The notes under the pieces were generated by a model that worked only from the letters and a program-made list of their open reading frames with translations, ran no database searches and had not been told where the DNA came from. A DNA stretch of 64,000 bases from Actinocatenispora comari (GTDB lineage Bacteria; Actinomycetota; Actinomycetes; Mycobacteriales; Micromonosporaceae), in NCBI RefSeq assembly GCF_017312725.1, contig NZ_BOPO01000002.1, forward strand, positions 1-64,000. The letters run 5' to 3'. The translations under genes were made by a program, and so were the position numbers. This document shows, one piece after another, positions 6,264 to 25,041 of this stretch (position 1 is its first letter; each line of letters opens with the position of its first letter).

Positions 6264-6304
6264 CCGCCGCCGCCAACCCCGGTCAGCGGGGGTTGGGGCG
6301 GCGG
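6264..6304. terminator. Bidirectional hairpin between convergent PLD and NRPS genes
   Basis: The left arm is rich in CCGCCGCCAACCCC and pairs with GGGGTTGGGGCGGCGG around a short GGTCAG loop. The structure spans the 25-bp gap and the last codons of the minus-strand NRPS gene, including its stop at 6283. It has no T-tract. A shared terminator for both transcripts is the simplest reading. Confidence 0.5.
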
Positions 6305-9300
6305 GCGGTGTTGCGGCGGCGCAGCGCGGAGCGTTGCCGGGCGCGGGTGAGCGCGGAGGTGTCGGCGGAGCCGTCCAGGTGCTCGGCGAGCGCCCGGATG
6401 TTGGGGAACCGGAACAGGTCGACCACCGGTACCGGCCGGCCGATGCGCTCCGCGATCCGGCTGCTGGCCTCGACCATCGCCATCGACGTCGCGCCGAGTT
6501 CGAAGAAGTTGTCGGTGGCGCCCAGCTCCGCCCGGTCCAGCAGCGCCTGCCACACCTCGGCGACCAGCCGTTCGGTGTCGGTGGCCGGCGCGACCGATCC
6601 TCCGGTACGGGCCGGGGCGGCCGCGGGCGCGTCGGTGACGCCGGTGGTGTCGAACCGCGGTCCCGCCGCGGCGGTGGCCGCCTCCGGCGCCGCGGCCAGC
6701 ACGCCGATCAGCTGCACCAGGCCGTCGAGCAGCGCCCGCATCCGCTCCGGCCGGTACAGGTCGGTGTTGTAGGCGGCCTCCAGCACGAACCGGCCGTCGC
6801 GCTCGGTCAGGTACAGGGTGAGGTCGAACGGCGAGCCGGGCACCGGCAGCGGCACCCGGGTGACGTCCAGGCCGGGCAGCTCCAGCCGCGGCTCGGCGAA
6901 GTTGAACACGTTGAACAGCACCTGCACCAGCGGGGCGCGGGACGCCTCACGCGCCACCCCGAGCGCGGCGACGATCTCCTCCAGCGGGGCGCCCGGGTGC
7001 GCCTCGGCGGCGAGCACCTCGCCCAGGCAGTACCGGATGTCGTCGGCGAAGCTGCCGCCGGTGTCGCCGCGCAGCCGCAGCGGCACGATGTCGACGAAGA
7101 ACCCGACCAGGTCGGTGAACGCGGTGCGCCGGCGGTCGGCGACGACGGCGCCGACGACGTGGTCGGTGCGGCCGGTCAACCGGCCCAGCGCCACCCCGAT
7201 CGCGGCGAGGACCACCACCGACGGGGTGGCGCCGTGCCGCGCGGCGGCGGCCCGTACGTCGGCGTCGGCCGCGGGCGGCAGCGGCGCGGCGAGCACCGCG
7301 CCGGCGTAGGTCTGTACCGGCGGGCGCGGTCGGTCGCGGGGCAGGTCAAGTGCGGTCGGGGCGCCGGCCAGGTGTTCGGTCCACCAGGCCAGATCGGCCT
7401 TGCCGCGCTCGGCGTCCCGGTCGGCGCGCCAGGCGGCGTAGTCGGCGTAGCTGGCCGGCAGCGGCGGCACCTCGGCGCCGGCGTACCCGGCGGCGATCTC
7501 CCGGTACAGCACCGACTGGGACCAGCCGTCCGCGACGGCGTGGTGCAGCACCAGGCACAGCACGTGCTCGGTCGGTCCCAACCGCAACAGTTCGGCCCGC
7601 CAGGCGGGGCCGGCGGCGAGGTCGACGACGGTACCGGCGCGGTCGCGCAGCGCGGCCGCCAGGTCGGCCTCGGTGACGTCGGTGACCGGCAGCGGCACGT
7701 CCCCGCTGGGGTCGCACACCGGCCGCGGCACGCCGTCGTGCTGCTCGATGCGCCAGCACAGCACGTCGTGCCGGTCGGCGACCCGGCGCAGCGCCGCGGC
7801 CAGCGCCGGTACGTCCAGCGGGCCGCGGATGCGTTCCGCGAAGGCGATGTTGTAGGCGGCGGAGTCGGGGGCGAGCTGGTCGACGAACCACAGCCGGCGC
7901 TGCGACGGCGACAGCGTGGGCGGGTTGCCGGTGGTCGGTTCCGGACCGGTCAGCGGCCCGGCGGCGGCGACCCGGGCGGCGATGCCGGCCGGGGTGCGGC
8001 CGGTGAACACGTCCTCGACGGTGACGTCGCGGGCGAACAGGTCGCGCAGCTCGGCGACCAGCCGCATGGCGGCGAGCGAGTGGCCGCCGTGGGCGAAGAA
8101 GTCGTCGTCCGGGCCGGGACTGCCGCCCAGCACCCGGGACCAGGCGGCGGCGACCGGATCGGTCGGGGTCGGCCCCGGGCCGAGCGGCGCCAGCGCCGCG
8201 AGCGCATCCCGGTCCACCTTGCCGACCACGGTGAACGGCAGCGAGTCGAGCCGCACGTACCGGCGGGGCACCATCGCGTCGGTCAGCCGCCGGGCGGCGT
8301 GCGCGACGAGTTCGTCGTCGGCGGGGGCGGTCGCGGGGGCGAGGTAGGCGACCAGTTCGGGGCCGATGGGGCCGGGCAGGGCGAGCACCGCGGCCTGGGT
8401 CACGTCCGGATGCGCCTGCAGTACCGCCTCGATCTCGCCGGTCTCGACCCGCTGCCCGCGGATCTTCACCTGGCCGTCGCGGCGGCCGAGGAACTCCAGC
8501 TGGCCGTCCGGACGCCGCCGGGCCAGGTCACCGGTGCGGTACAGCCGCTCGCCGGGCCGGCCGGACAGCGCGTCCGGGACGAACCGGGCGGCGGTCAGCC
8601 GCGGCGCGTCGAGATACCCGTACGCCACGCCGGGGCCGCCGATCAGCAGCTCACCGAGCTCGCCGTCCGGGACCGGCCGGAGCGCCTCGTCGACCAGGTA
8701 CGCCGCGTGCGCCCCCACCGGCGCCCCGATCGGCGGTTCCCCGTCCGGGGCTCCGTGCAGGTCGGCGGCCAGCACGAACACGGTGGTCTCGGTCGGCCCG
8801 TACACGTTGAACAGGTGCCGGTCGCGCCAGCGTTGCACCAGCCGCGGCGGGAGCGCCTCGCCGCCGACCACGATCGTGCGCAGCGTCGGCAGCGCCACCG
8901 GGTCGAGCAGCGCCAGTACCGGCGGGGTGCACACGCACCAGGTGGTCTCGTGTGCGGCCGCGAAGGCGACCAGCCGGGCCGGGTCGATCCGGTCCCGGTG
9001 TCCGACCAGCGCGACGGTGGCGCCGGTGGTCAGCGTCAGGAACAGGTCCATCACCGAGGCGTCCCAGCTCAGCGAGGTGAGGCCGAGCAGCCGGTCGGCG
9101 GCGGTGGCGCCGGTCAGCGCCCGGCACGCGTCGACGAACTCCAGCACGCTGCGCTGGCTGACCAGCACACCCTTCGGGGTACCGGTGGAGCCGGAGGTGT
9201 AGGCGACGTAGGCGAGGCGGTCCCGCCCGGGCGGCCCGGCCGGCACGACGGCCAGCGGCAGCGGCGTGGCCGGGACTTCCACCAGCGGTACGTCGACGGG

Positions 9301-9639
9301 GCCCAGCGCCGCCCGGCCGGCCGCGTCGACCACGATCGCGTCCACCCGCGACTCGGTCAGCAGGTGCCGCAACCGATCCCGCGGATGCGCCGGGTCCAGC
9401 GGCAGGTAGCCGGCACCGGAACCCAGCACGCCGAGCACCGCGACGACCATCTCGACGCTGCGCTCGGTGCACACCCCGATCAGCCCGGTACCGCCGGCCG
9501 GCAGCGTCGCCGCGAGCGCGCCGGCGCGGCCGAGCAGCGACGCGTAGCTCTCCGCCCGGTCCCACTGCCGTACCGCGACCGCCGCGGGTGTGGCCCGCGC
9601 CTGCGCCAGGACCAGCGCGAACAGGCTCTCATCAGCCAT
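6283..9639 (-). CDS. Non-ribosomal peptide synthetase, A-PCP-C-PCP
   Basis: The protein has 1118 residues. The adenylation domain (1-490) has YTSGSTGTPKG near 150, NVYGPTETT, YRTGDL and a GKVDRDAL lysine. PCP1 has GGHSL with Ser521. The condensation domain (about 560-990) has an intact HHAVADG. PCP2 has LGATSM with Ser1052. There is no second A domain and no thioesterase, so PCP2 must be loaded in trans, perhaps by the A-PCP protein at 19899-22985 or by transfer. By-eye specificity positions read D-A-M-C-V-G-V-V-F-K, which I cannot assign (a hydrophobic residue is likely). Its start overlaps the end of the TE-LanB gene by 8 bp. It is the last gene of the leftward operon. Confidence 0.93.
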   Translation of the reverse strand: MADESLFALVLAQARATPAAVAVRQWDRAESYASLLGRAGALAATLPAGGTGLIGVCTERSVEMVVAVLGVLGSGAGYLPLDPAHPRDRLRHLLTESRVDAIVVDAAGRAALGPVDVPLVEVPATPLPLAVVPAGPPGRDRLAYVAYTSGSTGTPKGVLVSQRSVLEFVDACRALTGATAADRLLGLTSLSWDASVMDLFLTLTTGATVALVGHRDRIDPARLVAFAAAHETTWCVCTPPVLALLDPVALPTLRTIVVGGEALPPRLVQRWRDRHLFNVYGPTETTVFVLAADLHGAPDGEPPIGAPVGAHAAYLVDEALRPVPDGELGELLIGGPGVAYGYLDAPRLTAARFVPDALSGRPGERLYRTGDLARRRPDGQLEFLGRRDGQVKIRGQRVETGEIEAVLQAHPDVTQAAVLALPGPIGPELVAYLAPATAPADDELVAHAARRLTDAMVPRRYVRLDSLPFTVVGKVDRDALAALAPLGPGPTPTDPVAAAWSRVLGGSPGPDDDFFAHGGHSLAAMRLVAELRDLFARDVTVEDVFTGRTPAGIAARVAAAGPLTGPEPTTGNPPTLSPSQRRLWFVDQLAPDSAAYNIAFAERIRGPLDVPALAAALRRVADRHDVLCWRIEQHDGVPRPVCDPSGDVPLPVTDVTEADLAAALRDRAGTVVDLAAGPAWRAELLRLGPTEHVLCLVLHHAVADGWSQSVLYREIAAGYAGAEVPPLPASYADYAAWRADRDAERGKADLAWWTEHLAGAPTALDLPRDRPRPPVQTYAGAVLAAPLPPAADADVRAAAARHGATPSVVVLAAIGVALGRLTGRTDHVVGAVVADRRRTAFTDLVGFFVDIVPLRLRGDTGGSFADDIRYCLGEVLAAEAHPGAPLEEIVAALGVAREASRAPLVQVLFNVFNFAEPRLELPGLDVTRVPLPVPGSPFDLTLYLTERDGRFVLEAAYNTDLYRPERMRALLDGLVQLIGVLAAAPEAATAAAGPRFDTTGVTDAPAAAPARTGGSVAPATDTERLVAEVWQALLDRAELGATDNFFELGATSMAMVEASSRIAERIGRPVPVVDLFRFPNIRALAEHLDGSADTSALTRARQRSALRRRNTARRPNPR

Positions 9640-12600
9640 CTGTCGCCTCCGCGTCGGTGATCTGCAGCCGCAGCTCGCTGAAGTACCGCTGGCCGGCGGC
9701 GTCGGGCACCCAGCACTCGTCGGGGGTGGGCAGCATCTCGGTGACCGTCACCGGTACGTCCCGGCCGGCGCGGGTGCGCGCCCCACGGGCCGCGTTGCAC
9801 AGCGCCACCGCGTACTGCGGGCTGGTCAGGTCGACGAAGAACGGCTTGATCTCGGTGTCGACCTTGACGTACACCCGTTCCGGCAGTCCCAGCTCGGCGC
9901 GCCACCGCCGTACCGCGAGGTAGCGCGCCGCGTCGCCGCGGGCGGCGGCGAGGCCGCTGCGATCCACCGTGGTACGCCAGGTCTCCCGGCTGACCACCAG
10001 CCGGTCGATGGACAGCCGGGCGGTGTGCTCGGCCGGTGCGAGCAGTTTGAACCCGTCCACCGCGTGCATCGCCAGCAGCGCCGAGAACACCTCCACCAGC
10101 GGCCGCTGCCGGCCGGACGGGTCGGTGGCGACCAGCGCGCCATCGGTCTCGGTGACCAGCATGCCGCTCGCGGGTACGTGCCCGGCGGTCGCGGCGACCG
10201 GGCCCGGCGCGACGCCCAGGTGCACGTCGTCGGCGTCGGCGAGGCTGTGCGCGACCCGGCCGGTGTGCCGCGGCCAGTCCGGCGGGTACAGCAGCCGCAC
10301 CCGGCCCGGCCCGAGATCGGCGGCGAGCGCGGCACGCAGCGCGTCGGCGTCCCGGTGCCACTCGGTGAACACCGCGCAGTCGAACGTCGGCCAGGCGACG
10401 TGCATCTCGCCCAGCACGACCTGGTAGTCGCCGCGCCGCAGTGCGGCCACGTCGGTCGCGCAGATCTGCAGGTCCGGGCTGTGCACGAAGCCGGCCGACC
10501 AGCCCGGGGCGTCGGCGGGGAACGCCGCCGCCACCGCGGGCGCGAGTTCCGCCGCGCGGCGCCGTACCGGGCCGTCGCCGGTGGCGCCGAACAGGCCGGC
10601 CCAGCGCGCCGCGAACTGCGCCGCGACCGCGTCGACCGGCCGGTCCCCGCCGCCCCACAGCGGCCCCTGCGCCAGGTACCACAGGTCCGACAGCCGCACC
10701 GGGCCCGGCTCGGCGGCCAGCTCCCGGTACAGCTCGTGCAGCGCCTGCCCGTACGCGTCGGCCAGCGCCACGGTGAGCCAGCGTGCCGCCCGCAGCAGGA
10801 TGTCCAGCGGGCCGGCCAGCTCGTCGAGCAGCGGGCGGCCGAACACCACGGTCAGGTCGCGGTCGGTGTCCTCGTAGCACAGCGACCGGCCGGCGTAGGT
10901 CTGCCCGGCCCGGCGCTGCGCCTCCTGCCCGGTCACCGCCTCGAACGTCTCGGCGAGCACACCGAGCGCGTCGCGCAGCGCGTCCGGGTCGCCGGCCGCG
11001 GCGGCAACCGCGTCGCGGGCTGCGTCGAGCCGGTCCAGCCCGCGCTGCGCGGCGGTCCGTTCCGGTTCGGTGCCGATCGCCGCGATCCGTTGCCGCAGCA
11101 CGCGCTCGGCGTCCGGATGCAGCGGCAGGTCGGCACCCCAGCGCAGCAACCCCTGCCGGGCCAGGCCGTCGAGCAGCAGGTACCCGTCCTCGTCCCGGCG
11201 CAGGCCCAGCTCCGGCGCGGTCGACAGCTCGGCCACCAGCTCGACGGCGGGCCGGCCGTCGGCGGCCGACAGCGCCGCCGCGGCCGCCGCGGACAGCGGC
11301 ACCGGCGGTTGCGCCGGCCGGTACGCGAGCCGCCCGTCCTGGTGGATCTCCGGCGAGACGACCACCGGCAGCCAGCGCCGGGTGGCCGGATCGTCGGCCA
11401 GCCGCTGCGCGTACGCGTCGAGGGCCCAGGTCTCGTAGTGCACCCGGCGGCGGCGGGTCAACCCGCGGCCCGGCTTGACGGTGGCCACCTCGGCGAGGTC
11501 GGGATCGACGGTGACCCAACAGGTCGGGCCGAAGAAGCCGATCGTGTCGTTCTTCCCGCAGTACCGCTGCCAGTAGCGGATCAGCGCGGTCTCCCGCTCC
11601 CGCCGCTTCGACGGGCGTCCGGTACCGCGGCCGGGCAGCAGGTGGTCCAGGCCGGTCAGCGCGTTGCGGTTCTGCCAGCCGACCGCCTCGCGCAGCAACG
11701 GATCCGCCGCCAGCTCGGCCGCCACCCGCGAGCCGCGTTCCACCGCATCCTGGTACGCGGCAACGAAACCGGCGTCGGTGACCGCCTGCTGCGGATCGAC
11801 CTTACCGAGCGCGTCGGCGGTCACGGCGAGCTCCGGCGCGGCGAACCGGTTCAGCCCCGCCGCCGGGAAGCCGGTGCCGCGCAGCAGCGCGTCCCGCCAC
11901 ACCGACCAGCCGGTCTCCCCCAGCGGAACGCGATGCGCCGCCGACGCCGCACCCGGGCCCGGCGCGCCGGGAAACGCCACAGCGCCAGCCGAAGCCGCGC
12001 CGGACCGGACCGCCCTGGACGGGGCCGTGGCGAACGAAGGTGTGCGGGGCGGGGCCGTGTCGGGTGGGGACGGCGCCGGGCTCGCGGCACGGTCGGTGTG
12101 CAGGTCGGCCCGGATCAGCGCGGCGAGCCGGTCGAGCGTGTCGTGCAGGAAGAAGTGGCCACCGGGCAACCGGTGCGCCCGGACCTCGGTGTCGGTGTGC
12201 CGCTGCCAGCCGGCCAGCTGCCCCAGCGGTACGGCCACGTCGGACTCACCGGCGAACGTGGTCACCGGGACCGGCAGCGGCGCCCGCGGCTCGTACCGGT
12301 ACACCTCCAGCCAGGCCAGGTCGGCCCGCAGCACCGGCAGCAGCAGGTCGATCAGGTCCGGTGCGTCGAGCAGCTCGGTGGGCATCCCGCCGGCCGCGAC
12401 GACCCGGGCCACCAGCCGGTCGCGGGGCAGCCCGGCGATGTTGTCCAGCGGCCCGTCGCCGCGCTCGTCCGGCGGCCGGGCGGCGGCCGCGAACAGCCGC
12501 TCCGGCAACCGGTCACCCCGCTCGGCCAGTACCCGGGCCACCTCGTAGCCCAGCCGGGCGCCCAGCGAGTGCCCGTACAGCGCGAACCGCGGGCCGGCGT

Positions 12601-12841
12601 CGGCCACGATCGCGTCCGCCATCGCGACCGGATCCAGCTCCAGCGGCTCGCCGTACCGGCCCTCCCGGCCGGGGAGCTTGACCGGCACCACCTCCACCTC
12701 GGCGCCGAACGCGGCCGGCCAGCGGCGGAAGACACTGGCACCGGCGCCGGCGTAGGGCAGGCAGTACAGCTGCCAGGTGGCGTCGGCGCGGCGCACCGGT
12801 CGCGGGAACCAGCCGTCCGCCGGGCCGCCCGTCCCGGTCAT
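9632..12841 (-). CDS. Type II thioesterase fused to LanB-like lantibiotic dehydratase N-terminal domain
   Basis: The protein has 1069 residues. Residues 1-240 are an editing-type (type II) thioesterase: LPYAGAG near 25, GHSLG with Ser92, GESDVAV near 200 and GGHFFLHD near 229. A Pro/Ala/Ser linker (240-305) leads to about 760 residues matching the lantibiotic dehydratase N-terminal (glutamyl-tRNA-using) domain: NALTGLDHLLPGRGTGRPSK, GKNDTIGFFGPT near 435, GRSLCYEDTDRD near 650 and a C-terminal AGQRYFSELRL. Full LanB enzymes add a C-terminal elimination domain, which is absent here. Proteins with only this domain include thiopeptide split dehydratases and peptide aminoacyl-tRNA ligases (PEARLs). 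No LanC or C-terminal elimination partner lies in the window. Inferred role: tRNA-dependent aminoacylation or glutamylation on an assembly-line or ribosomal peptide substrate. It overlaps the PKS gene by ATGA and the next NRPS by 8 bp, so it is translated with the assembly line. Confidence 0.85.
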   Translation of the reverse strand: MTGTGGPADGWFPRPVRRADATWQLYCLPYAGAGASVFRRWPAAFGAEVEVVPVKLPGREGRYGEPLELDPVAMADAIVADAGPRFALYGHSLGARLGYEVARVLAERGDRLPERLFAAAARPPDERGDGPLDNIAGLPRDRLVARVVAAGGMPTELLDAPDLIDLLLPVLRADLAWLEVYRYEPRAPLPVPVTTFAGESDVAVPLGQLAGWQRHTDTEVRAHRLPGGHFFLHDTLDRLAALIRADLHTDRAASPAPSPPDTAPPRTPSFATAPSRAVRSGAASAGAVAFPGAPGPGAASAAHRVPLGETGWSVWRDALLRGTGFPAAGLNRFAAPELAVTADALGKVDPQQAVTDAGFVAAYQDAVERGSRVAAELAADPLLREAVGWQNRNALTGLDHLLPGRGTGRPSKRRERETALIRYWQRYCGKNDTIGFFGPTCWVTVDPDLAEVATVKPGRGLTRRRRVHYETWALDAYAQRLADDPATRRWLPVVVSPEIHQDGRLAYRPAQPPVPLSAAAAAALSAADGRPAVELVAELSTAPELGLRRDEDGYLLLDGLARQGLLRWGADLPLHPDAERVLRQRIAAIGTEPERTAAQRGLDRLDAARDAVAAAAGDPDALRDALGVLAETFEAVTGQEAQRRAGQTYAGRSLCYEDTDRDLTVVFGRPLLDELAGPLDILLRAARWLTVALADAYGQALHELYRELAAEPGPVRLSDLWYLAQGPLWGGGDRPVDAVAAQFAARWAGLFGATGDGPVRRRAAELAPAVAAAFPADAPGWSAGFVHSPDLQICATDVAALRRGDYQVVLGEMHVAWPTFDCAVFTEWHRDADALRAALAADLGPGRVRLLYPPDWPRHTGRVAHSLADADDVHLGVAPGPVAATAGHVPASGMLVTETDGALVATDPSGRQRPLVEVFSALLAMHAVDGFKLLAPAEHTARLSIDRLVVSRETWRTTVDRSGLAAARGDAARYLAVRRWRAELGLPERVYVKVDTEIKPFFVDLTSPQYAVALCNAARGARTRAGRDVPVTVTEMLPTPDECWVPDAAGQRYFSELRLQITDAEATDG

Positions 12842-15800
12842 CGCGGCCGGGCCAGGCGCGGGATCGCCGGGGCGGGCGCCGCGGCGGCGGTGTCGCGGCG
12901 CTGCTCGACCAGCTCGGCCATGCCGGCCACGGTCGTCGTCTCGAACAGGCTGCGCATCGGCAGCTTCACCCCGGTCGCGGTGCGTACCTTGCCGATCAGC
13001 TGCACCGCGACCAGCGAGTTGCCGCCCAGGTCGAAGAAGTCGTCGTCGCGGCCGACCACCGGCACGCCGAGCACGTCGGCCCAGATCCCCGCCAGCTGCG
13101 CCTCCAGCTCGGTACCGGGTGCCGCTCCGTCGCCGAGCGCTTCGGCGGCATCGTCGGCGACCGGGCCGGTGAGCGTCTCGATGGTCGCCGCGGCCGCCAC
13201 GAACTGCTCGTCCATCGGCCGTACCGACACCGCGACCTGCGGCCCGAGCCCACCGGCGAGCAGCCGCCACAGCACCTCGGCCCCGTCGGCCGGCGCGATC
13301 CCGCCCGCCGAGCCTCCCCCACCGGTACCGCCGGGCCCGGCGACGTCCGCGACCACACCGCCGGCCGACGCGCCCACGGCCGGCGCGGCGGTCGGCGCGG
13401 GGGAAGCGGTCGGCGCGGCGGATGCGGTCGGGGTGGCGCGGACGGCGGTGGCCATCGCGGTCGGGTCGACCCGGCGCAGCATGAAGTCGGCGATGTCGAC
13501 CAGCACCCGGCCGTCGTCGTCGACCAGCTGGATGTCGGCGGTGGTGATCTCGTCGCCGGGCTGCCCGACCAGGTGCGCCCACAGCCGCGGGGGCAGCGGC
13601 GCGTGCACGGTGATCCGGCCGTACCCGAGGGGCAGGAACGATCCGCCGTCGACATCGAGCAGGCTGGTCGCCTCGTCCAGCAGCGCCGGATGCAACGGCC
13701 AGTCGGCCAGCTCGGCCGCCACCTCGGCCGGCGCGACCAGCCGGGCCAGCACCTCGCCGGGGCCGCGGTGGGTGGTGCGCAGGTTCTGCCACCGGCCGCC
13801 GAACTCGACCAGCCCGGACCGGGACCGGTGGCTCGTCACCTCGGTACCGGCTCCCAGCCGCTCGCGCAGCGGCGGCAGCGCGACCGGCGCCGGCGCGGCG
13901 AACCGCACCCACGCGGCGGTCCCGCGCACGTGCGTGGTGGCGCCGGTGACGATCTGCACGTCGTACCCGTCGTCGCCGGGCGTCAGCCGGACCGTCACCG
14001 TCGTGTCGGTACCGTCCGGCACCGCCAGCGGCGCCACGAACGCCACGTCGCGCAGCTCCACCACGGCCTGCTCGTCGGGCGCCGGTACCGCCGCGGCGAA
14101 CGCGGCCCGGGCCAGCTCCAGGTGCCCAGTGCCGGGCAGCACCGGCACGCCGGCGATCCGGTGCTCGCCCAGCACCCAGTGGCTGCCGGGCCCGAACCGC
14201 CCGCGCACCACCCGGCTCGTGCCGTCGTCGACCCGTTCGGTCAGTACCGGATGCGTCACCGTGACCGCCGCGCCGCCCGAACCGGCCGCGGCGGAGCCGC
14301 CCCCGCTCGCTGCGATGCCGGAGCCGCCTTCGGTTGCTCTGGCGCCGGTGCCGGCTCCGGTTGCCGCGGTGCCGGCTCCGGTTGCCGCGGTGCCGGCTCC
14401 CGTTGCTGCGGTGCCGGCTTCGGTTGCCGCGGTGCCGGGGCCGCCGAGGGCGGCCGGGCGCGCGGTCTCCACGGCCATGCCGACCTCGCTCCAGGCGCCC
14501 CAGTCGACGCTGAGCACCGGGCAGCCGAAACCGCCGCCGTGCTGGGCCACCGCGTCGAGGTAGGCGTTGGCCGCCGCGTAGTCGACCTGACCGAGCCCAC
14601 CGACCACACCGGTCACCGACCCGCACAGCGCCACGAAACTCAGCTCGTCCGCGCCGAACACCTCGGCCAGCGCCCGGGTGCCGGCGATCTTGGGCGCCAG
14701 GACCGCGTCGACCGCCTCGCGGGTCTTCATCGCGATCAGCCCACCGCCGGGCACGCCGGCGGCGTGCACGATGCCGTCCAGCCGGCCGTACTGGTCGAGG
14801 ATCCGCTCGCGCACCGCCCGCAGCGCAGCCACGTCGGTGACGTCGGCGGCGACCGGCAGCACCTGCCCGCCGGCGGCCTCGATCCGCTCGATCGCGGCGA
14901 TGGTGCGCCCGACCCGGTCGGTACCACCGGCCAGCGCCGGCCACTGCTCGCGCGGCGGCAGCGGGGTACGGGCCAGCAGCACGATCCGGGCCCGGCAGCG
15001 GCGGGCCAGGTCCGCGGCGACGGTGCCGCCGATCCCGCCGGTACCGCCGGTGATCAGGTACACGCCGCCGTCGGGCAGCTGGTCGGTGCGCGCCGGCAGC
15101 GGCACCGGCTCGAACTCGGGCGCCCAGCGCCGGCCGCGGCGCAGCGCCACCGTCTGCGCGTACTCGCCGGACGGCGGTACCCGCAGCTCGGCGGCGATCG
15201 CGGCGACGTCCGACGGGTGCGCCGCGTCGACGTGCCGGACGGTGACGACGCCGGGCAGCTCGGTCGGCAGCGACCAGGCGGCCGCCGCGGTACCGGCCGC
15301 GAGCGGGTCGGTCACGTCGTCGCCCAGCACCGCGCGGGTACCGGCGGTGACCACGTCCAGGTGCACCGGGCCGGGCAGCGCCGCCTCGGCGAGCGCCTGG
15401 CCGAGCGCGACGACGCTGTGCACCGCCTCGTCCACGCCAGCGTCCGGGGACAGCGTCCAGGCGTGCACGATCCGTTGCGGGACACCGGAACCGGCCGCCA
15501 GCTCGGCGAGCAGCGCGGCGAGGCCGGCGCGATCGGCCGGATCCAGCACCGGCGCCCGAACGGTGTCCGGGCCGAGCGCGCCGGCGAGCGCGTCGCCGGA
15601 CTCGCCGGCGGCCAGCAGCAGGCAGCGCGGCGCGGCCGGCGCGTCGACCGCGGGCGGCAGCTGCCGCCACACCGGGACGCTGCACCACTGCGCCATGCCG
15701 CGGTCCACCGGCGCCGGCGGGACGGGCGCCGGCGCGGCCGACGGCGCCGGGTCGACCCAGTGGTAGCTGCGCTCGTACGGGTAGGTCGGCAGCGGGATCC

Positions 15801-18339
15801 GCCGCCCCGGCGTGCCGAACCCGGGCAGTTCGACGCCGGCCGCCCAGAGCCGGCCGGCCGCCGCGTAGAGGGTGGCGAGGTCGCCCTGCCGGGCGTCCGG
15901 GCCGGGCAGGCTCGGGACCGGCAGCCGGGCCTCGCGCGGGGTCTGCATCCGGGCCAGCCCGACCAGCTGGCTGCCCGGCCCGCACTCGACCGCGAGCCAG
16001 TCGCCGTCGGCCCGCAGCCGGGCCACGCAGTCGCCGAACCGGACCGGCTCGCGCAGGTGCGCCGCCCAGTACGCCGGGTCGGTGGCCTGCTCGGCGGTGA
16101 TCCAGTCGCCGGTGCGGTTGGACAGGTACCGGCGCTGCGGCGCGTGCCGTTCGACCGCGGCCACCAGCTCGGTGAACTCGGCCAGTACCGGCTCCATCGA
16201 GGCGGAGTGGAACGCGTGCGAGGTGCGCAGCCGCCGGCGGCCGATGCCCTGCCCGGTCAGCGACTCGGCGTAGGCGTCGATCAGCTCGGTCGGCCCGGAC
16301 ACCACGCAGGTGCGCGGCCCGTTCACCGCGGCGATGTCCAGCCCCGCCGGCAGCGCCGCGGCCACCTCGTCGGCGGACAGCTGCACGGCGAGCATCGAAC
16401 CCGGCGACACCGACTGCATCAGCCGGCCGCGGGCGGCGACCAGCCGCAGCGCGTCGGCCGGCGCGAACACGCCGGCCAGGGTCGCCGCCACGTACTCGCC
16501 GATGGAGTGGCCGATCATCGCCGCGGGCGTGACACCCCAGGACTCCCAGAGCCTCGCCAGCGCGTACTCGACGGTGAACAGCGCCGGCTGCGCGTGCCGG
16601 GTCTGCTGCAGCGTCTCGGCGTCGGCGGCGAGCGGGTCGGCGCCCAGTACCGCGGCGCACTCGGCCACCGCGGCGGCGAACACCGGCTCGGTGGCGCGCA
16701 GCTGCGCGGCCATTCCGGCGTACTGCGCGCCCTGGCCGGAGAACAGGAACGCCACCTGCGGCGCAGACTTGCCGACGTGATCGGTGTGCCGCTTGCGATC
16801 GGCCAGCGCCCGCACCGCGCCGGCGGCGTCCTCGGCGACCACAACGGTGCGGTACGGGTGCGGTTCGCGGCCGACCCGCAGCGTGTACGCGACGTCGGCC
16901 AGCGGCGTGTCCGGCGCCTCGGTCAGCCGGCTGGACAGCTGGTCGACCACGGTCGCCAGCGCCGCCTCCGACCGGGCCGACAGCTGGATCAGCTCGACCC
17001 GCTCCGGCGCCGCTGGCCTCGGGTCGGCCTGCGCAGGCGCCTCCTCCAGCACCACGTGCGCGTTGGTACCGCCGATGCCGAACGAGCTGACCCCGGCGCG
17101 GCGCGGCCCGTCGCCGGGCTGCCAGCCGGACAGCACCGCGTTGACGTAGAACGGGCTGGTCGCGAAGTCGATCGCCGGGTTCGGCGTCTCGTAGTTGATG
17201 CTCGCCGGGATCAGCTTGTGCTGCAACGCAAGTACCGTCTTGATCACCGCGGCGACCCCGGCGCCCTGGGACAGGTGGCCGATGTTCGACTTGACCGAGC
17301 CCAGGGCGCACCAGCCGGTGTCGTCGGCCTGCGCGCCGTACGCGGCGGACAGCGCCGCCACCTCGATCGGATCACCGAGCGCGGTCGCGGTGCCGTGTGC
17401 CTCCACATAGGACACGGTGCGCGGGTCGATGTCGGCCATCGCGAGCGCCTGCGCGACCACGTCGGTCTGCCCATCGACGCTGGGCGCCGAGAAACCGACC
17501 TTGGCCGCGCCGTCGTTGTTGATCGCGTTGCCCAGGATCACCGCACGCACGTCGTCGCCGTCGGCCAGCGCGTCGGACAGCCGCTTGAGCACGATCACCC
17601 CGCCGCCGCTGCCCCACAGGGTGCCGGCGCCGCGGGCGTCGAACGGCCGGCAGTGCCCGTCCGGCGCGGTGATCCCGCCGTCCTGCGCGATGTAGCCGCC
17701 GCCGTGCGGCAGCTCGATGCACACCCCGCCGGCCAGCGCCATGTCGCACTCGCCGTTACGCAGCGCCTCGCACGCCAGATGGATCGCCACCATCGAGGTG
17801 GAGCAGGCGGTGTGCAGGGTGAAGCTCGGCCCGCGCAGGTTCAGCTTGTACGAGACCAGGGTGGCGACGTAGTCGGGGTTGTTGCCGATGTTGACGGCGA
17901 GGTTGCCGGCCGAGTCGGCCAACCGCGGGTTGGCCCGGACGTTCTTCCACAGGTAGTCGGTGGCACCGGTACCGGCGTAGACGCCGACCAGCCCGTCGTA
18001 GCGCGCCGGGTCGTACCCGGCGTCCTGCAGCGCGGTGTGCGACAGCTCCAGGAACAGCCGGTGCTGCGGGTCGGCGACGTCCGCCTCGCGGCGGCTCATC
18101 CCGAACAGGCCGGGATCGAAGTACTCGATGTCGTCGATCACCGGCGCGGCGGCGACGAAGTCGGGATGGTCGACCATCTCGACCGGCAGCCCCAGTTTCA
18201 GCTGCTCGTCCCGGTTGGAGAACCGGATCGACTCGACGCCGTCGACCAGGTTCGACCAGAACTGGCCGGCGTCCCGGGCACCCGGCACCCGGCAGGCCAG
18301 GCCCACCAGCGCGATGCGTTCGACGTTGTCATCGGTCAT
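12838..18339 (-). CDS. Type I polyketide synthase module KS-AT-KR-DH-ACP
   Basis: The protein has 1833 residues. KS: TACSTSM with Cys179, EAHGTAT and NIGHLSQGAG, so it is fully catalytic. AT: GHSIGEY with Ser612 and HAFH, the malonyl-CoA signature. KR: GGTGGIGG near 1098, then CGSVTG and DYAAANAY as Ser/Tyr of the active site. DH: HRIAGVPVLP near 1390 (HxxxGxxxxP) and HPALLDEA as the second half. Carrier protein: LGGNSL with Ser1775. Predicted chemistry is one malonyl extension, ketoreduction and dehydration to an alpha,beta-unsaturated acyl unit. The DH lies after the KR instead of before it, an unusual order for cis-AT synthases. A 21-bp DNA repeat makes the KR-DH linker. The start overlaps the upstream KS gene by 11 bp and the end overlaps the TE-LanB gene by ATGA. 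Confidence 0.93.
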   Translation of the reverse strand: MTDDNVERIALVGLACRVPGARDAGQFWSNLVDGVESIRFSNRDEQLKLGLPVEMVDHPDFVAAAPVIDDIEYFDPGLFGMSRREADVADPQHRLFLELSHTALQDAGYDPARYDGLVGVYAGTGATDYLWKNVRANPRLADSAGNLAVNIGNNPDYVATLVSYKLNLRGPSFTLHTACSTSMVAIHLACEALRNGECDMALAGGVCIELPHGGGYIAQDGGITAPDGHCRPFDARGAGTLWGSGGGVIVLKRLSDALADGDDVRAVILGNAINNDGAAKVGFSAPSVDGQTDVVAQALAMADIDPRTVSYVEAHGTATALGDPIEVAALSAAYGAQADDTGWCALGSVKSNIGHLSQGAGVAAVIKTVLALQHKLIPASINYETPNPAIDFATSPFYVNAVLSGWQPGDGPRRAGVSSFGIGGTNAHVVLEEAPAQADPRPAAPERVELIQLSARSEAALATVVDQLSSRLTEAPDTPLADVAYTLRVGREPHPYRTVVVAEDAAGAVRALADRKRHTDHVGKSAPQVAFLFSGQGAQYAGMAAQLRATEPVFAAAVAECAAVLGADPLAADAETLQQTRHAQPALFTVEYALARLWESWGVTPAAMIGHSIGEYVAATLAGVFAPADALRLVAARGRLMQSVSPGSMLAVQLSADEVAAALPAGLDIAAVNGPRTCVVSGPTELIDAYAESLTGQGIGRRRLRTSHAFHSASMEPVLAEFTELVAAVERHAPQRRYLSNRTGDWITAEQATDPAYWAAHLREPVRFGDCVARLRADGDWLAVECGPGSQLVGLARMQTPREARLPVPSLPGPDARQGDLATLYAAAGRLWAAGVELPGFGTPGRRIPLPTYPYERSYHWVDPAPSAAPAPVPPAPVDRGMAQWCSVPVWRQLPPAVDAPAAPRCLLLAAGESGDALAGALGPDTVRAPVLDPADRAGLAALLAELAAGSGVPQRIVHAWTLSPDAGVDEAVHSVVALGQALAEAALPGPVHLDVVTAGTRAVLGDDVTDPLAAGTAAAAWSLPTELPGVVTVRHVDAAHPSDVAAIAAELRVPPSGEYAQTVALRRGRRWAPEFEPVPLPARTDQLPDGGVYLITGGTGGIGGTVAADLARRCRARIVLLARTPLPPREQWPALAGGTDRVGRTIAAIERIEAAGGQVLPVAADVTDVAALRAVRERILDQYGRLDGIVHAAGVPGGGLIAMKTREAVDAVLAPKIAGTRALAEVFGADELSFVALCGSVTGVVGGLGQVDYAAANAYLDAVAQHGGGFGCPVLSVDWGAWSEVGMAVETARPAALGGPGTAATEAGTAATGAGTAATGAGTAATGAGTGARATEGGSGIAASGGGSAAAGSGGAAVTVTHPVLTERVDDGTSRVVRGRFGPGSHWVLGEHRIAGVPVLPGTGHLELARAAFAAAVPAPDEQAVVELRDVAFVAPLAVPDGTDTTVTVRLTPGDDGYDVQIVTGATTHVRGTAAWVRFAAPAPVALPPLRERLGAGTEVTSHRSRSGLVEFGGRWQNLRTTHRGPGEVLARLVAPAEVAAELADWPLHPALLDEATSLLDVDGGSFLPLGYGRITVHAPLPPRLWAHLVGQPGDEITTADIQLVDDDGRVLVDIADFMLRRVDPTAMATAVRATPTASAAPTASPAPTAAPAVGASAGGVVADVAGPGGTGGGGSAGGIAPADGAEVLWRLLAGGLGPQVAVSVRPMDEQFVAAAATIETLTGPVADDAAEALGDGAAPGTELEAQLAGIWADVLGVPVVGRDDDFFDLGGNSLVAVQLIGKVRTATGVKLPMRSLFETTTVAGMAELVEQRRDTAAAAPAPAIPRLARPR
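14350..14433. repeat. 21-bp tandem repeat inside the PKS gene, four copies
   Basis: Four copies of a 21-bp unit beginning GCCGGCTCCGGTTGCCGCGG lie at 14350, 14371, 14392 and 14413. Read on the coding strand they give a seven-residue Thr-Ala-Ala-Thr-Gly-Ala-Gly repeat in the linker between KR and DH. The unit keeps frame, so copy number changes only alter linker length. Confidence 0.9.
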
Positions 18340-19768
18340 CGTCGACCTCCGATCTCGGCTCGGTCCCCGTTGCCGCTCGATCCCGTTGCGTGTCGTCCCC
18401 GGCGGCGGTTCGATCCCGCTGCCGCCGTACCGGTTCGATCCAGTGCCGCTGGCGGTGGAACTGCTGTGGCGGCAGCGGCGCGCGGCGCGGCGTGCCGGCC
18501 GGTGCCGGCTCGCCCAGCACCACGTGTGCGGTGGTGCCGCCCAGCCCGATCGCGCTGACCCCGGCGTACCGCGGGCCGGGCGTCGGCCACTCCCGGGTGT
18601 CGGCGGCGATCTCGAACCGGCCGGCGGACAGGTCGACGTCCGGGTGCGGCGCGTCGAAGTGCAGGCTCGCCGGCACGACCCCGTCGCGTACCGCCAGCGC
18701 GGCCTTGATCAGCCCGGCCACGCCGGCGGCCGCGTCCAGGTTGCCGATGCTCGGCTTGACCGAGCCGAGCAGGCAGGTCCGCGCTGCGCCGGCGAACACC
18801 GAGCCGAGCGCCCGAACCTCGATCGCGTCGCCCAGCGGGGTGCCGCTGCCGTGCGCCTCGACGTACCCGATGTCCGCCGGCAACAGGTCCGCGGTGGCCA
18901 GCGCCTCGGCGACCGCGTCGGCCAGCCCGGCCACCCCCGGTACCGCGAAGCCGCCGCGGCGCGCGCCGTCGTTGCTGACCGCCCAGCCGCGCAGCACCGC
19001 GTACACCCGGTCGTCGGTGACGTCCTCGCAGCGCTTGAGGACCACGCCGGCGGCGCCGCTGGCGTACCGGGTGCCCTGCGCCTTGGCGTCGAACGCGCGG
19101 ATCGTGCCGTCCGGCGACAGCCCGGCGCGGGCCAGGTAGCCCGACGGCGTGGTCGCCGCCACCGACGATCCGCCCGCGATCGCCAGATCGCACCGGAAGT
19201 CGAGCAGGCTCTGCGCCGCCAGGCAGACCGCGACCAGCGACGACGCGCACGCCGCCTGCGTCGCCACGGCCGGCCCGGTCAACCCCAGCTTGTACGCGGT
19301 GCGCAGCGGCAGGTAGTCCGGCGCGTGGCCGGGCGGCATCGGCTCGTCCGCCGCGCCCAGCAGCTCCGGCCGGTACAGGTGCCGCAGGAAGTACCGGTTG
19401 ACCGAGGTGCCGGTGAACACCCCGACCGGCCCGTCGAGCCGCCCCGGCTGCTCGCCGGCGTCCTGCAGCGCGTGCCAGGCCACCTCCAGGAACAGCCGGT
19501 GCTGCGGGTCGATCTCCGCCGCCTCGGCCGGGGTGTAGCCGAAGAACTCGGCGTCGAAGTCCTCGATGCCGGGCAGGTAACCGCCGGCCGGCACGTACCG
19601 CGGGTCGGCCAGCAGGTCGTCGCCGACCCCGGCGGCGCGCAGCTCGGCGGCGGAGTACCGGTGCATGGTGTCGATGCCGGCGCACAGGTTGTCCCAGTAC
19701 GCCGCGACGTCGGCGGCGCCGGGCAGCCGGGCCGCCATGCCGACGATCGCGATCCCGTCGTCGCTCAT
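18329..19768 (-). CDS. Stand-alone ketosynthase of non-elongating (KS0) type
   Basis: The protein has 479 residues with a single modular-type KS domain and a short basic tail, and no AT, ACP or docking domain. The acylation site AACASSL (Cys174) and the first histidine motif EAHGSGT are present. The second histidine motif, normally NIGHLEAAAG, reads SIGNLDAAAG with Asn343 in place of His. Loss of this histidine abolishes malonyl decarboxylation and marks non-elongating KS0 domains in trans-AT synthases, which only transfer acyl chains. A separate gene for such a domain suggests a transacylase passing the chain between the A-PCP protein and the PKS module, or a non-standard C-N or C-O bond former. 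The start at 19768 follows AAGGAG by 8 nt. Confidence 0.88.
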   Translation of the reverse strand: MSDDGIAIVGMAARLPGAADVAAYWDNLCAGIDTMHRYSAAELRAAGVGDDLLADPRYVPAGGYLPGIEDFDAEFFGYTPAEAAEIDPQHRLFLEVAWHALQDAGEQPGRLDGPVGVFTGTSVNRYFLRHLYRPELLGAADEPMPPGHAPDYLPLRTAYKLGLTGPAVATQAACASSLVAVCLAAQSLLDFRCDLAIAGGSSVAATTPSGYLARAGLSPDGTIRAFDAKAQGTRYASGAAGVVLKRCEDVTDDRVYAVLRGWAVSNDGARRGGFAVPGVAGLADAVAEALATADLLPADIGYVEAHGSGTPLGDAIEVRALGSVFAGAARTCLLGSVKPSIGNLDAAAGVAGLIKAALAVRDGVVPASLHFDAPHPDVDLSAGRFEIAADTREWPTPGPRYAGVSAIGLGGTTAHVVLGEPAPAGTPRRAPLPPQQFHRQRHWIEPVRRQRDRTAAGDDTQRDRAATGTEPRSEVDDDR

Positions 19769-19902
19769 CGGCCACGCTCCTTCGCCGGAGGCCCGACGAG
19801 GCAGGACACGCCGTGCCCCTGGTTCGCTCGTCGACGCTCACGCCTACTGCGGCAGACGCACGACGGGGCTCGGCGCGTGGCAACCACGGTCCGCTCGTTC
19901 AT
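19765..19902 (-). CDS. Candidate 45-residue ORF tiled by ATGA overlaps
   Basis: The ATG overlaps the stop of the A-PCP gene (ATGA) and the TGA overlaps the ATG of the ketosynthase gene (ATGA), so the 130-bp junction is filled exactly. The peptide begins MNERTVVATRRAPSCVCRSR and is Arg-rich with three cysteines. GGAG lies 6 nt before the start. It might be a ribosomal peptide substrate for the LanB-like domain, or merely an open leader segment giving translational coupling; the 3' end contains the AAGGAG of the next gene. No homologue is recognised. Confidence 0.3.
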   Translation of the reverse strand: MNERTVVATRRAPSCVCRSRRERRRANQGHGVSCLVGPPAKERGR

Positions 19903-22900
19903 CGGGCGCTCCGCCGGGCGGCCCGGCGGGCCATCCGCGTCGCGAGCCGGTCCGCGCCGACGCTCGTGGCCACCCCGCCCCGTCGCGCCATCTCGACATC
20001 CACCGTCGGTGGTTCGGTGGCGGCGTCGTCCACTATGGACGACGCCGACGCGTCCGCGGTGGCCGCCCGGGCCGCCGGTATGCGCACGTCGTCCACAGTG
20101 GACAGAACTGCGGCGTCGCCACGAACCTCGGCGCAGCGAGCGGCGAGTGCCGTCACGGTCGGGTACTCGAACAGGTCGAGCAGCGGCAGCCGCACCCCGA
20201 GGTCGCGTTCCAGCCGGCGCTGCACCCCGGCCAGCGCCAGCGAGTGCCCGCCCAGGTCGAAGAAGTTGCGGTCCGGTTCCACCGACGGCACGCCCAGCTC
20301 CGCGCACCACGCGGCGGCCACCGTACGTACCAGCGGATCGTCCGGCAGCTCCGCCGCCACGGTGGCGACCGGCGCCGCGGGCAGCGCGGCGACGTCCACC
20401 TTGCCGGTCGGCGTGGTCGGCAACTCGTCGAGCACCACCACCGCCCGTGGCACCAGGTAGTGCGGCAGCCGCTGCGACAGCCCGGCGAGCAGCTGGTCCG
20501 GGTCGAGCCCGCCCGCACCGGCCGCGTAGCAGACCAGCTCCCGCTCCGCCGGCAACCCGCCGGCGGTGAGCCGCTCGCGAGCCACCGCGACGGCCTGGCG
20601 GACGCCGGGCAGCTCGGCCAGTACCGCCTCGATCTCGCCGAGTTCCACCCGATAGCCGCGGATCTTCACCTGCCGGTCCACCCGGCCCAGGTGCACCAGC
20701 CGGCCGTCGGACAGCCGCCGGGCCAGATCGCCGGTGCGGTAGGTGCGGACCTCGCCGACGGCCGGGAACGGTCGACCGACGTACCCGAGCGCGAGATGCC
20801 GGCTGCGCACCACGATCTCACCGACCAGCGCGGCCGGCGCACCCTCGGGCGTGCACAGCGTCACGTCGATGCCGGGCAGCGGGTGCCCCACCGGCACCAC
20901 CCCGCCGACCGGCGGCGCGGTCAGGTGGTCCTGCGCGATGAAGCTGATCTCGGTGGCCCCGTAGCCGTTGACGAACACGCCGTCCGGCGCGAAGTGCCGC
21001 CAGTAGGCGACCGCGTCGGCGGCGTGCACCGCCTCACCGCCCAGCAGTACCACCCGGATCGCCGGCAGCCGCCCGCCCTCCAGCGCCGCGACCAGGTGCC
21101 GGTACACCGTCGGCGTCGAGTGGTAGACGCTGACCTTCCGGTCCCGCAACGCTTCCACCAGGTGCAGCAACCCGTGGCGGCGGATGTCCACCGGCACCGC
21201 CGCCGCCCCGGACAGCAGCGCCGAGAACAGGTCGGTGATCGCCATGTCGAAGCTGAACGAGCTGAGCACCGAGACCCGGTCGGCCGGATCGATGCGGGAG
21301 TTGTCGATGTGGTTGCCGGCGGCGAACAGCACGTTGCGGTGGCTCTGCACCACGCCCTTGGGCAGCCCGGTCGACCCGGACGTGTACAGCACGTACGCCT
21401 CGGCGTCCAGGTCGGTGTCGGGCACCGGCAACGGCGCCGCGGGCAACCCGGACACGTCGACCACCCGGACCGCGGGTCGGAGAGTGCCCGGCGCCGGCTG
21501 CCCGCCCGCCGCCTCGGCGACCAGCTCCGCAGCGAGGCCGCGGGTACCGGCGTCGACCAGCACGGTGTGCACGCCGGAGTCGCGCAGCAGGTGCGCCAGC
21601 CGCGCCCGCGGGTAGGACGGGTCGGCCGGCACGTACGCGGCGCCGGCGGCGAGCGTGCCGAGGATCGCCGCGACCGTACCGGCGCCGTGGTCGAGCAGCA
21701 CCGCGACCCGACCACCGACCGGCGCCCCCGCTCCGAGCGCGACCCGGCCAGCAACCGCCCCGCCGGCGATCGAAGCTTGGCCGGCGACCGCCGCCCCGCC
21801 GGCGATCGGAGCCCGAGCGGGGGCCGCCCCGCCGGCCGCGATGGCCTGCGCGACGCCGCCCGCCGCGGCCGCCAGCTCGGCGTAGCTGAGGGTGCCGTCG
21901 TCGGCCAGTACGGCGGGGCGATCGGGCTGCGCGGCGACCAGCTCGGCGAACCTGCCGAGCACCGTGCCGGTGCGCTGCGCGGGGCGCCATGCGGCCGAGG
22001 GCCGGTGCCGGTCACCGAGCTCCGGCGGCTGCCGGCGCTCGATCGTCATCCGGTCGGGTAGCTCGCCGGTGTCCAGCGTGGTGGCGAGGTCGGCGGCCAG
22101 GCACTCGGCGAGCGCGTCGTCGACCACCTGCCGGTCGTGGCCCAGCCAGACCCGGTTCCCGGTGGCCACCACGACCAGGTCGCACGGGTACCAGCCGGCG
22201 GCCAGGACCAGTTCGGCCACGTCGTCGGTGCACCCCGGCAGCACCGCGTCGCCGGTCACCAGCCAGATCGACGCCGCCGCCGGCGCCTCCCGGTACGGCA
22301 CGCCCGCCCCCGGCCCGATCGCCCCGGCCGTACCGGCATCACCCGTACCGGCGTCACCCGTACCGGCGTCACCCGTACCGGCGTCACCCGTACCGGCATC
22401 GCCCGGCTCGACGGCACCGGCATCGACGGCACCGCTCGGATCGGCCGCGGCGGGTTCGTCGGCACCGGTCAGGATCAGCCGCAGCCCGGACTCGCCGGCG
22501 ACCGCGCGGGCGATCGGAAACCCGACGGTACCGGTGTAGCGGGTCAGCACCGCCCGCAGCGCGTGCTGCACCTGGTGCGCCGAGCCGGCGCGATCGGCGC
22601 GCACCGCACACCAGCCGTCCACGCCGCACCGTGACTCGACCACCCGCCCCGGCGCCAGTTCCGGCGTCACCCAGTCGTGCCGCACCGCCGGCACCGGCGG
22701 CTCGGGCCCGGCCGAGATCGCGGGCGGGCGTGGCCGGCCGAGGAGTTCCGACCAGGCCTCGGCGAGCGACCGGTGGTCGAACCCGCCGTCGGGATCGACG
22801 TCGAGCTGCTCCGCGCCGGGGCCGGCCTGCCAGGCGGGATGCGCGTCGCTCCACGAGATCCGCCATCCGGGGTGCGTCTCGTGCCAGGCCGGCAACCGCG

Positions 22901-22985
22901 GTGTCACCGTCGCCGGTTCGACGATCGCGGTGCGCCGCAACGTATCCGGCGGTACCGACGGGTAGCGGGAGCCGATCGTGGTCAC
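19899..22985 (-). CDS. NRPS A-PCP protein with degenerate condensation-like N-terminus
   Basis: The protein has 1028 residues. Residues 1-345 have no clear domain. The end of this part (LAAGWYPCDLVVVATGNRVW) resembles the C-terminal strand-helix part of condensation domains, but no HHxxxDG is present, so it is probably non-catalytic. The A domain (about 345-850) has YTSGSTGLPKG near 530, NGYGATEISF instead of the usual YGPTE, YRTGDL and GKVDVAAL. The PCP has LGGHSL with Ser915, followed by a long Ala/Arg tail. By-eye specificity positions read D-M-T-H-L-G-G-F-I-K, which I cannot assign. The neighbouring panD makes beta-alanine a candidate substrate, though the code lacks features of known beta-alanine domains. 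The GTG start overlaps the upstream gene (GTGA). Confidence 0.88.
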   Translation of the reverse strand: MTTIGSRYPSVPPDTLRRTAIVEPATVTPRLPAWHETHPGWRISWSDAHPAWQAGPGAEQLDVDPDGGFDHRSLAEAWSELLGRPRPPAISAGPEPPVPAVRHDWVTPELAPGRVVESRCGVDGWCAVRADRAGSAHQVQHALRAVLTRYTGTVGFPIARAVAGESGLRLILTGADEPAAADPSGAVDAGAVEPGDAGTGDAGTGDAGTGDAGTGDAGTAGAIGPGAGVPYREAPAAASIWLVTGDAVLPGCTDDVAELVLAAGWYPCDLVVVATGNRVWLGHDRQVVDDALAECLAADLATTLDTGELPDRMTIERRQPPELGDRHRPSAAWRPAQRTGTVLGRFAELVAAQPDRPAVLADDGTLSYAELAAAAGGVAQAIAAGGAAPARAPIAGGAAVAGQASIAGGAVAGRVALGAGAPVGGRVAVLLDHGAGTVAAILGTLAAGAAYVPADPSYPRARLAHLLRDSGVHTVLVDAGTRGLAAELVAEAAGGQPAPGTLRPAVRVVDVSGLPAAPLPVPDTDLDAEAYVLYTSGSTGLPKGVVQSHRNVLFAAGNHIDNSRIDPADRVSVLSSFSFDMAITDLFSALLSGAAAVPVDIRRHGLLHLVEALRDRKVSVYHSTPTVYRHLVAALEGGRLPAIRVVLLGGEAVHAADAVAYWRHFAPDGVFVNGYGATEISFIAQDHLTAPPVGGVVPVGHPLPGIDVTLCTPEGAPAALVGEIVVRSRHLALGYVGRPFPAVGEVRTYRTGDLARRLSDGRLVHLGRVDRQVKIRGYRVELGEIEAVLAELPGVRQAVAVARERLTAGGLPAERELVCYAAGAGGLDPDQLLAGLSQRLPHYLVPRAVVVLDELPTTPTGKVDVAALPAAPVATVAAELPDDPLVRTVAAAWCAELGVPSVEPDRNFFDLGGHSLALAGVQRRLERDLGVRLPLLDLFEYPTVTALAARCAEVRGDAAVLSTVDDVRIPAARAATADASASSIVDDAATEPPTVDVEMARRGGVATSVGADRLATRMARRAARRSAR
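22331..22405. repeat. 15-bp tandem repeat in the A-PCP gene, five copies
   Basis: Five copies of TACCGGCGTCACCCG (first and last slightly changed) encode a Gly-Asp-Ala-Gly-Thr repeat on the minus strand. The repeat sits in the unrecognised N-terminal part, where it acts as a flexible insert. Its presence inside the condensation-like remnant supports the view that this part is no longer a constrained enzyme. Confidence 0.9.
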
Positions 22986-24744: not shown

Positions 24745-24881
24745 GCGCCAGTTCACTCCCCGTCGAATGGCAACGGCGCAGCGCAGACCGGCATCCGTTT
24801 CGCCGGAATGATGCGGCACCCGTCGGTCGGACCGAGTCGCTAGGAAATCGGTCATCGTGGATCTCGCGGTGACCTGCGGCG

Positions 24882-24990: not shown

Positions 24991-25041
24991 CTGCATGCCC
25001 GGTAGCGGTGCGTACGGGACGAGACGAGTCAGGAGTTGGCC

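Follow-up and report, generated by a model that had tools for sequence, protein, structure and literature searches.

What is a thioesterase (TE) doing in one polypeptide with a domain of the lantibiotic dehydratase family, in the middle of a nonribosomal peptide synthetase (NRPS) and polyketide synthase (PKS) gene cluster? The question is raised by a gene of Actinocatenispora comari found in positions 1-64,000 of contig NZ_BOPO01000002.1 (assembly GCF_017312725.1, forward strand), and this whole stretch of 64,000 nucleotides is called the window here. The residues of the second domain argue strongly that it is a putative peptide aminoacyl-tRNA ligase (PEARL) and not a dehydratase, and it is predicted to couple a free carboxylate to an aminoacyl-tRNA using ATP. 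The explanation that we tentatively favour, at somewhat less than an even chance, is a two-step off-loading and amidating enzyme, in which the TE would free a carrier-bound chain and the fused PEARL would amidate it.

The fused protein and its second domain

The TE-PEARL gene is a single uninterrupted frame of 1069 aa (9632-12841, minus strand). A first-pass annotation, made from the sequence alone, had described a TE joined in frame to about 760 LanB-like residues, and this was borne out, with the PEARL region at residues 301-1069. Its other particulars can be read directly in the sequence: the nucleophile motif is GHSLG, with Ser92, and the gene overlaps its PKS neighbour by ATGA and its NRPS neighbour by 8 bases (ATGGCTGA). 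Pfam Thioesterase (PF00975) matched residues 24-245 (E 1.8e-28) and Lant_dehydr_N (PF04738) matched residues 379-1010 (E 1.6e-25); each score exceeded the curated cut-off, and no family was assigned in an NCBIfam scan of the protein. TE-PEARL is the sole PF04738 match of its own 7.96-Mb genome.

An AlphaFold2 model of the fusion (17 rows) had a mean predicted local distance difference test score (pLDDT) of 75 and a predicted template modelling score of 0.62. It has a LanB-type fold that matched TbtB, MibB, MadB and NisB, and its TE part separately matched RifR, RedJ and other type II thioesterases. The linker between the two looks flexible, since pLDDT is below 50 at residues 250-326 and its length differs among orthologues. 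The triad of Ser92, Asp201 and His229 was kept in 48 of 48 rows, and RifR was the nearest solved chain to the TE domain (E 1.6e-37). The domain thus has the type II triad and a RifR-like fold; it is fused and not stand-alone, though it lies outside the terminal module. A second TE of the cluster ends the last NRPS, with GHCGVG at its nucleophile position, and the fused TE would therefore not be needed for final release.

The second domain was compared with published PEARL residues. Those given for BhaBCTrp are Asp558, Glu575, Glu813 and Arg815, with Tyr205 and Arg208 binding the CCA end of the tRNA (PMC11962472), and the ATP-site residues of TglB are Asp542, Glu801 and Arg803 (PMC11117183). 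The window protein has Asp790 (in SPD), Glu812 (in LGE), Glu1056-x-Arg1058 and Tyr423-x2-Arg426. Asp790 and Glu1056-x-Arg1058 fit the three TglB residues, Glu812 fits the position of the second Mg-binding Glu of BhaBCTrp (PMC11962472), and Tyr423 and Arg426 fit the CCA-binding pair Tyr205 and Arg208. The four ATP-site residues were invariant across alignment A1 (28 rows). Among 102 rows, all longer than 600 aa, Asp790, Glu812, Tyr423 and Arg426 were kept in 101, and Glu1056 and Arg1058 in 100. At the multi-PEARL loci L106, L110 and L111 of other genomes, Asp790 was found in six of six proteins, Asp replaced Glu812 in four of the six, and E-x-R was found in all five proteins read at E1056 (L110_3694 was not among them).

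Rows of LanB type, sorted by score and size only into full LanB rows and presumed split LanB rows (L113-L116), differed at these positions. Asp790 and Glu812 were missing from six full LanB rows, in which the E1056 region was not clearly alignable, and four presumed split rows have E-x-F, T, T and N where PEARLs have E-x-R (Arg in none). TbtB has also been reported to be without the PEARL Asp and Arg (PMC11117183), and the PEARL profile matched TbtB with E 2.1e-13. The Tyr423/Arg426 pair was kept in the six full LanB rows as well and is not diagnostic alone.

Because the ATP-site residues of PEARLs are kept, coupling with ATP and an aminoacyl-tRNA is predicted, not lanthipeptide dehydration. 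Dehydration was rejected on these residues together with the missing elimination domain. The first-pass annotation had also argued from the lack of that domain, and no PF14028 match was found by Pfam in the protein, nor in a genome search in which no positive control matched. Its further point, the lack of LanC, stood for the window genes scanned by Pfam but failed for the genome, which has five LANC_like matches on other contigs. Its preference for a tRNA-using, amino-acid-adding role over dehydration is supported by sequence, and a precedent is in print: SnaE, from the threopeptin pathway of Stackebrandtia nassauensis, is an annotated lantibiotic dehydratase in an NRPS-PKS cluster that adds Thr by an amide bond (PMC11212132). 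Two details of the proposed chemistry did not survive. Use of any aminoacyl-tRNA is at odds with published passages in which PEARLs are each assigned one amino acid (PMC11962472 and a further paper), and direct transfer onto a carrier-bound thioester does not fit enzymes that activate a free carboxylate with ATP and whose ATP-site residues are kept here.

Relatives, the ureido motif and the tree

GTDB species genomes were scanned with short peptide patterns, which gave 69 loci, close relatives only; their neighbourhoods were mostly ±10 kb, and the absence of a TE or of a ureido-forming condensation domain (Curea) refers to that span. TE and PEARL were in one frame at 40 loci and adjacent but unfused at 6; the TE was elsewhere or unclear at 2, and 21 had no TE match in the retrieved DNA. 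The same fusion was found beside NRPS and PKS genes in related genomes. Most loci came from Micromonospora, and other genera were Nonomuraea, Bailinhaonella, Microtetraspora, Actinokineospora, Actinophytocola, Catellatospora, Actinomadura, Rhodococcus and others. A second PEARL gene (PEARL2), 51-55% identical to the window's domain, lies directly behind the fusion at 34 of the 40 fused loci. Three genomes of genus mates were compared: the fusion is also present in G050, the gene of G070 has a TE part split over two frames, and G012 has no PF04738 match. Over the DNA retrieved, G050 and G070 share with the window, at 75-97% identity, the neighbours aspartate decarboxylase, DUF6002, adenylation-thiolation (A-T) protein, ketosynthase (KS), PKS, the A-T-C-T NRPS (C, condensation) and others. 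A frame error or chimera was ruled out by the open frame, the fusion in G050 and the 40 of 69 loci with one frame.

Within Micromonosporaceae, at least 56 of 150 genomes (26 of 44 genera, own genome counted) matched the PEARL profile at E<=1e-100, a lower bound with seven candidates scored per genome. The Micromonospora gene order is A-T, KS, TE-PEARL, PEARL2, A-T-C-T and KS-AT-KR-DH (acyltransferase, AT; ketoreductase, KR; dehydratase, DH), followed in G122 by MbtH, C-A, C-A, TE and a major facilitator superfamily (MFS) gene; carrier domains of relatives were not mapped in this comparison. A core of KS, PEARL with or beside a TE, A-T-C-T and PKS recurs in loci of Micromonosporaceae, Streptosporangiaceae and Pseudonocardiaceae. 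A viral contig scan, which sees close relatives only, gave no relative, and phage records matched the TE part only. Plasmid fusions were considered and rejected, as the eight records that cover at least 80% of the query are, among those listed, separate genes (LanB, ABC transporter, hydrolase) that the search tool had merged. At L108, L109 and L112, pairs of PEARL genes flank an A-domain-like gene, with MFS or aminotransferase-like genes near and no condensation-domain match.

EHHxxHDG is the published mark of ureido-forming domains. It was found neither in the window nor in any TE-PEARL locus retrieved, and ureido chain reversal as in the sna cluster was rejected for this reason. Of 163 sequences, the only ones with the motif were L152 and ten short loci that had been retrieved because of it. 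When 397 genomes of the order were searched with the codon pattern EHH(L/I/V/M/F)VHDG, 9 matched; G000 (the window's own genome), G122, G082 and G115, in which TE-PEARL clusters were mapped, did not. The A-T-C-T protein has the condensation motif HHAVADG in the window and at L071; at the other core loci listed it reads HHAVFDG. At L152 (10244-17614, minus strand, in G358) both sna activities are in effect fused, in one 2457-aa A-T-Curea-A-T-PEARL protein. G358 also carries a TE-PEARL pair on another contig and, on a third, an A-T-PEARL that is cut by the contig end. C-A-T-PEARL proteins were found in G513 and G067 (loci L155 and L157). The domains of these carrier-fused PEARLs were assigned by similarity and motif, and their T domains by position.

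A tree of 53 rows drew on 26 of the 69 loci and on further sequences; SnaE is absent from it, and 29 rows without a label do not enter the label counts. Because G358 is apparently the genome from which L078 comes, and G115 likewise for L061, L153 and L123 do not count as independent. The four carrier-fused PEARLs grouped together (100/100), away from a 34-row clade (100/100) that holds the 13 TE-fused rows. PEARL2 also formed one clade (100/100), and its copies nest among the TE-fused rows. At L080, L082 and L093, all in the 34-row clade, the PEARL is near AMP-binding, KAS III, AT, acyl carrier protein (ACP), KS or sulfotransferase genes by Pfam; the sulfotransferase was the only gene scanned at L082. 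Actinomadura and Rhodococcus loci of this clade had no condensation-domain match, and L002, of the same clade, has one. There are hints, no more, that the 34-row clade acts on small acyl carboxylates.

Proposed off-loading and amidation weighed against other readings

PEARLs need a free carboxylate, no ureido-forming domain was seen and TEs make carboxylates, so hydrolysis followed by amidation is the simplest course. The TE would then supply the PEARL substrate by hydrolysing the chain off a neighbouring PKS or NRPS carrier to give a free carboxylate. On the evidence of its residues and homology, the PEARL domain is predicted to use ATP to phosphorylate this carboxylate. An aminoacyl-tRNA would then attack the activated carboxylate through its amino group, and hydrolysis of the tRNA ester would leave a chain that is one amino acid longer. 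The flexible linker could allow a substrate to be shared between both active sites, and two tRNA-derived residues may be added at the 34 loci with a second PEARL gene. The wider possibility, about which we are more doubtful, is that a partial or finished chain is freed as an acid and then extended from charged tRNAs, one residue per PEARL (two in the many Micromonospora with a tandem PEARL), without a C or A domain for these residues or ureido reversal. On that wider reading, assembly lines would have a second route, of general use, to aminoacyl-tRNA.

Another possible explanation, which is plausible though also short of an even chance, is that the PEARL acts as SnaE does, its carboxylate being exposed at another site of the product, such as a side chain or the starter end, and that the TE is an ordinary editing enzyme fused to it by chance. 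The two readings are about level. The main known task of type II thioesterases is the editing of stalled carriers, and the RifR-likeness of the fused TE is in keeping with that task. SnaE itself works in a cluster with a stand-alone thioesterase, SnaD (PMC11212132), and the TE is separate or not found at some of the loci. However, the missing EHHxxHDG motif, both in the window and in the TE-PEARL loci retrieved, argues against a SnaE-like supply of substrate, as does the separation of the ureido- and carrier-fused PEARLs from the TE-fused rows in a tree that does not hold SnaE. TE and PEARL are paired at 46 of 69 loci, which suggests a joint task, although these loci share ancestry.

Several observations weigh against off-loading followed by amidation. 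Besides the RifR-likeness and the editing role of type II thioesterases, the TE is separable, being unfused, elsewhere or not found in part of the 69 loci; as most of these are from Micromonospora, their counts lack independence. At L079, from Catellatospora, the core is present and no TE was matched within 10 kb. In G070 (L120, 1-1214) the TE part is in two frames as sequenced and the PEARL frame is open. When scored against the other labelled rows of the tree, the TE-fused label requires 4 changes, in part due to the nesting of PEARL2. The PEARL assignment has its own weak points. The mapping onto TglB and BhaBCTrp was made by published motif and spacing, their sequences lying outside the alignment; the Asp-to-Glu spacing is 22 residues here and 17 in BhaBCTrp, and plain spacing does not preserve the Gln201 position. 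In the D790 column Asp is also found in L116, a presumed split LanB row, and pLDDT in the model falls below 50 at several places within the PEARL part.

A role in which the PEARL extends a ribosomal scaffold peptide, the assembly line being separate or acting later, seems very improbable. PqqD-type domains can bind leader peptides, and the enzyme family is the same as that of the scaffold-extending PEARLs. The PEARL profile weakly touched a PqqD-type domain (E 0.041), but vestigial domains of this kind have been described, with leader binding found to be non-essential (PMC11962472), and the overlapping frames tie TE-PEARL to the PKS and NRPS genes, with a like gene order in other genera. The first-pass annotation had offered a ribosomal scaffold as one acceptor; no evidence for this was found, though no search aimed at precursors was made. 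More improbable still is a LanB-like glutamyltransferase that esterifies Ser or Thr of a nonribosomal chain for dehydration. The Pfam name of the domain would favour it, and two downstream A domains look Ser-like by a hand-assigned code; the PEARL ATP-site residues and the want of an elimination domain, with the genome search read as above, argue against it.

If off-loading and amidation were correct, one fused enzyme would let nonribosomal lines off-load and then extend a chain from charged tRNAs. This route would be independent of ureido chain reversal, the explanation of the one characterised case found. Since the core recurs in three families, one product structure would explain many clusters whose gene is annotated as lantibiotic dehydratase.

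The surrounding cluster and known systems

The features of the cluster are listed in Table 1, and its outer limit is uncertain around the Rossmann-type gene.

Table 1. Features of the TE-PEARL gene and its cluster in the window
Feature	Positions	Strand	Basis
NRPS A-T-C-T; C motif HHAVADG, non-ureido	6283..9639	-	Pfam; motif
TE-PEARL fusion gene, 1069 aa	9632..12841	-	Open reading frame and overlaps with both neighbour genes
PEARL-type domain, residues 301-1069; Y423, R426, D790, E812, E1056, R1058	9635..11941	-	PF04738; residues; TbtB/MibB/NisB fold
Ala/Pro-rich linker, about residues 250-303	11933..12094	-	Low pLDDT; orthologue length variation
Type II thioesterase domain, residues 24-245, Ser92/Asp201/His229	12107..12772	-	PF00975; RifR nearest solved chain; triad
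PKS KS-AT-KR-DH-ACP	12838..18339	-	Pfam
Stand-alone ketosynthase, Asn for second catalytic His (KPSIGN)	18329..19768	-	Pfam; sequence; relatives
Stand-alone A-T protein, start codon picked by hand	19899..22985	-	Pfam; substrate code
DUF6002 protein, predicted threonine-synthase-like pyridoxal phosphate (PLP) fold	22982..24331	-	PF19465 E 3.2e-182; Foldseek
Aspartate 1-decarboxylase (PanD) homologue	24385..24900	-	PF02261 E 2e-47; also beside cluster in G050, G070
MbtH-like protein	25036..25248	+	PF03621
NRPS C-A-T-C-A-T	25241..31537	+	Pfam
NRPS C-A-T-TE with in-frame MFS transporter, terminal module	31611..37136	+	Pfam
Rossmann-type protein by eye, no Pfam match	40776..41840	-	Found with DUF6002 in 9/47 core loci

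The terminal NRPS (31611-37136, plus strand) continues in frame into the MFS part, so that the assembly line is joined to an exporter; TE and MFS matches adjoin in G122 (L122) too. The stand-alone KS (18329-19768, minus strand) has Asn at its second catalytic His. A condensation-dead stand-alone KS was rejected as a general feature, since 47 matches in relatives comprise 37 with His, 8 with Asn and 2 without the motif. The model of the DUF6002 protein, for which Foldseek gave a threonine-synthase-like PLP fold, has a pLDDT of only 63. DUF6002 and the Rossmann-type protein co-occur in 9 of 47 core loci and never with a second PEARL, which 33 of the 47 have; this exclusion covers the retrieved DNA of 47 of the 69 loci and is confounded by ancestry. 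The genome that contains the two-PEARL locus L039 has DUF6002 too, at another site. An ATP-grasp or L-amino acid ligase-like gene (38952-40457, plus strand) lies beside the cluster and might provide another amide-forming step. The code of the stand-alone A domain is conserved as D(A/M)(P/T/S)HLGGF(A/V/I) in 40 rows and that of the A-T-C-T A domain is not; code positions were set by hand from the GrsA scheme, and no substrates could be named.

PEARL fusions to thioesterase and to thiolation domains are mentioned in PMC11212132, so the existence of a TE-PEARL fusion was already known. Among the papers listed in literature searches, no functional or comparative account of it was seen. New here are the spread of the fusion, the PEARL residue test, the absence of a ureido motif, the presence of a tandem PEARL and the placement in a clade apart.

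Among the closest known systems, compared by description, is SnaE, a PEARL-like enzyme in an NRPS-PKS cluster with predicted use of ATP and aminoacyl-tRNA (PMC11212132). SnaE is separate from SnaD and uses the carboxylate left by a Curea domain, whereas here the TE is fused and no Curea motif was seen. The carrier-fused PEARLs of L152, L155 and L157 are likewise joined to assembly-line parts, but their PEARL is at the NRPS C-terminus and they form a separate clade. TglB, BhaBC and AmmB share the ATP-site Asp, the Glu-x-Arg and the tRNA-site Tyr and Arg by published residue pattern, but extend ribosomal scaffold peptides. NisB, MibB and TbtB have the common fold but dehydrate Ser/Thr with the help of Glu-tRNA. 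In fold, triad and sequence the TE resembles RifR and other type II thioesterases; RifR is stand-alone and the TE here is fused. Livipeptin offers a further parallel, a tRNA-using enzyme with a C-minus NRPS for which fusions are reported, but that enzyme belongs to the leucyl/phenylalanyl transferase family and is not a PEARL (PMC10548850).

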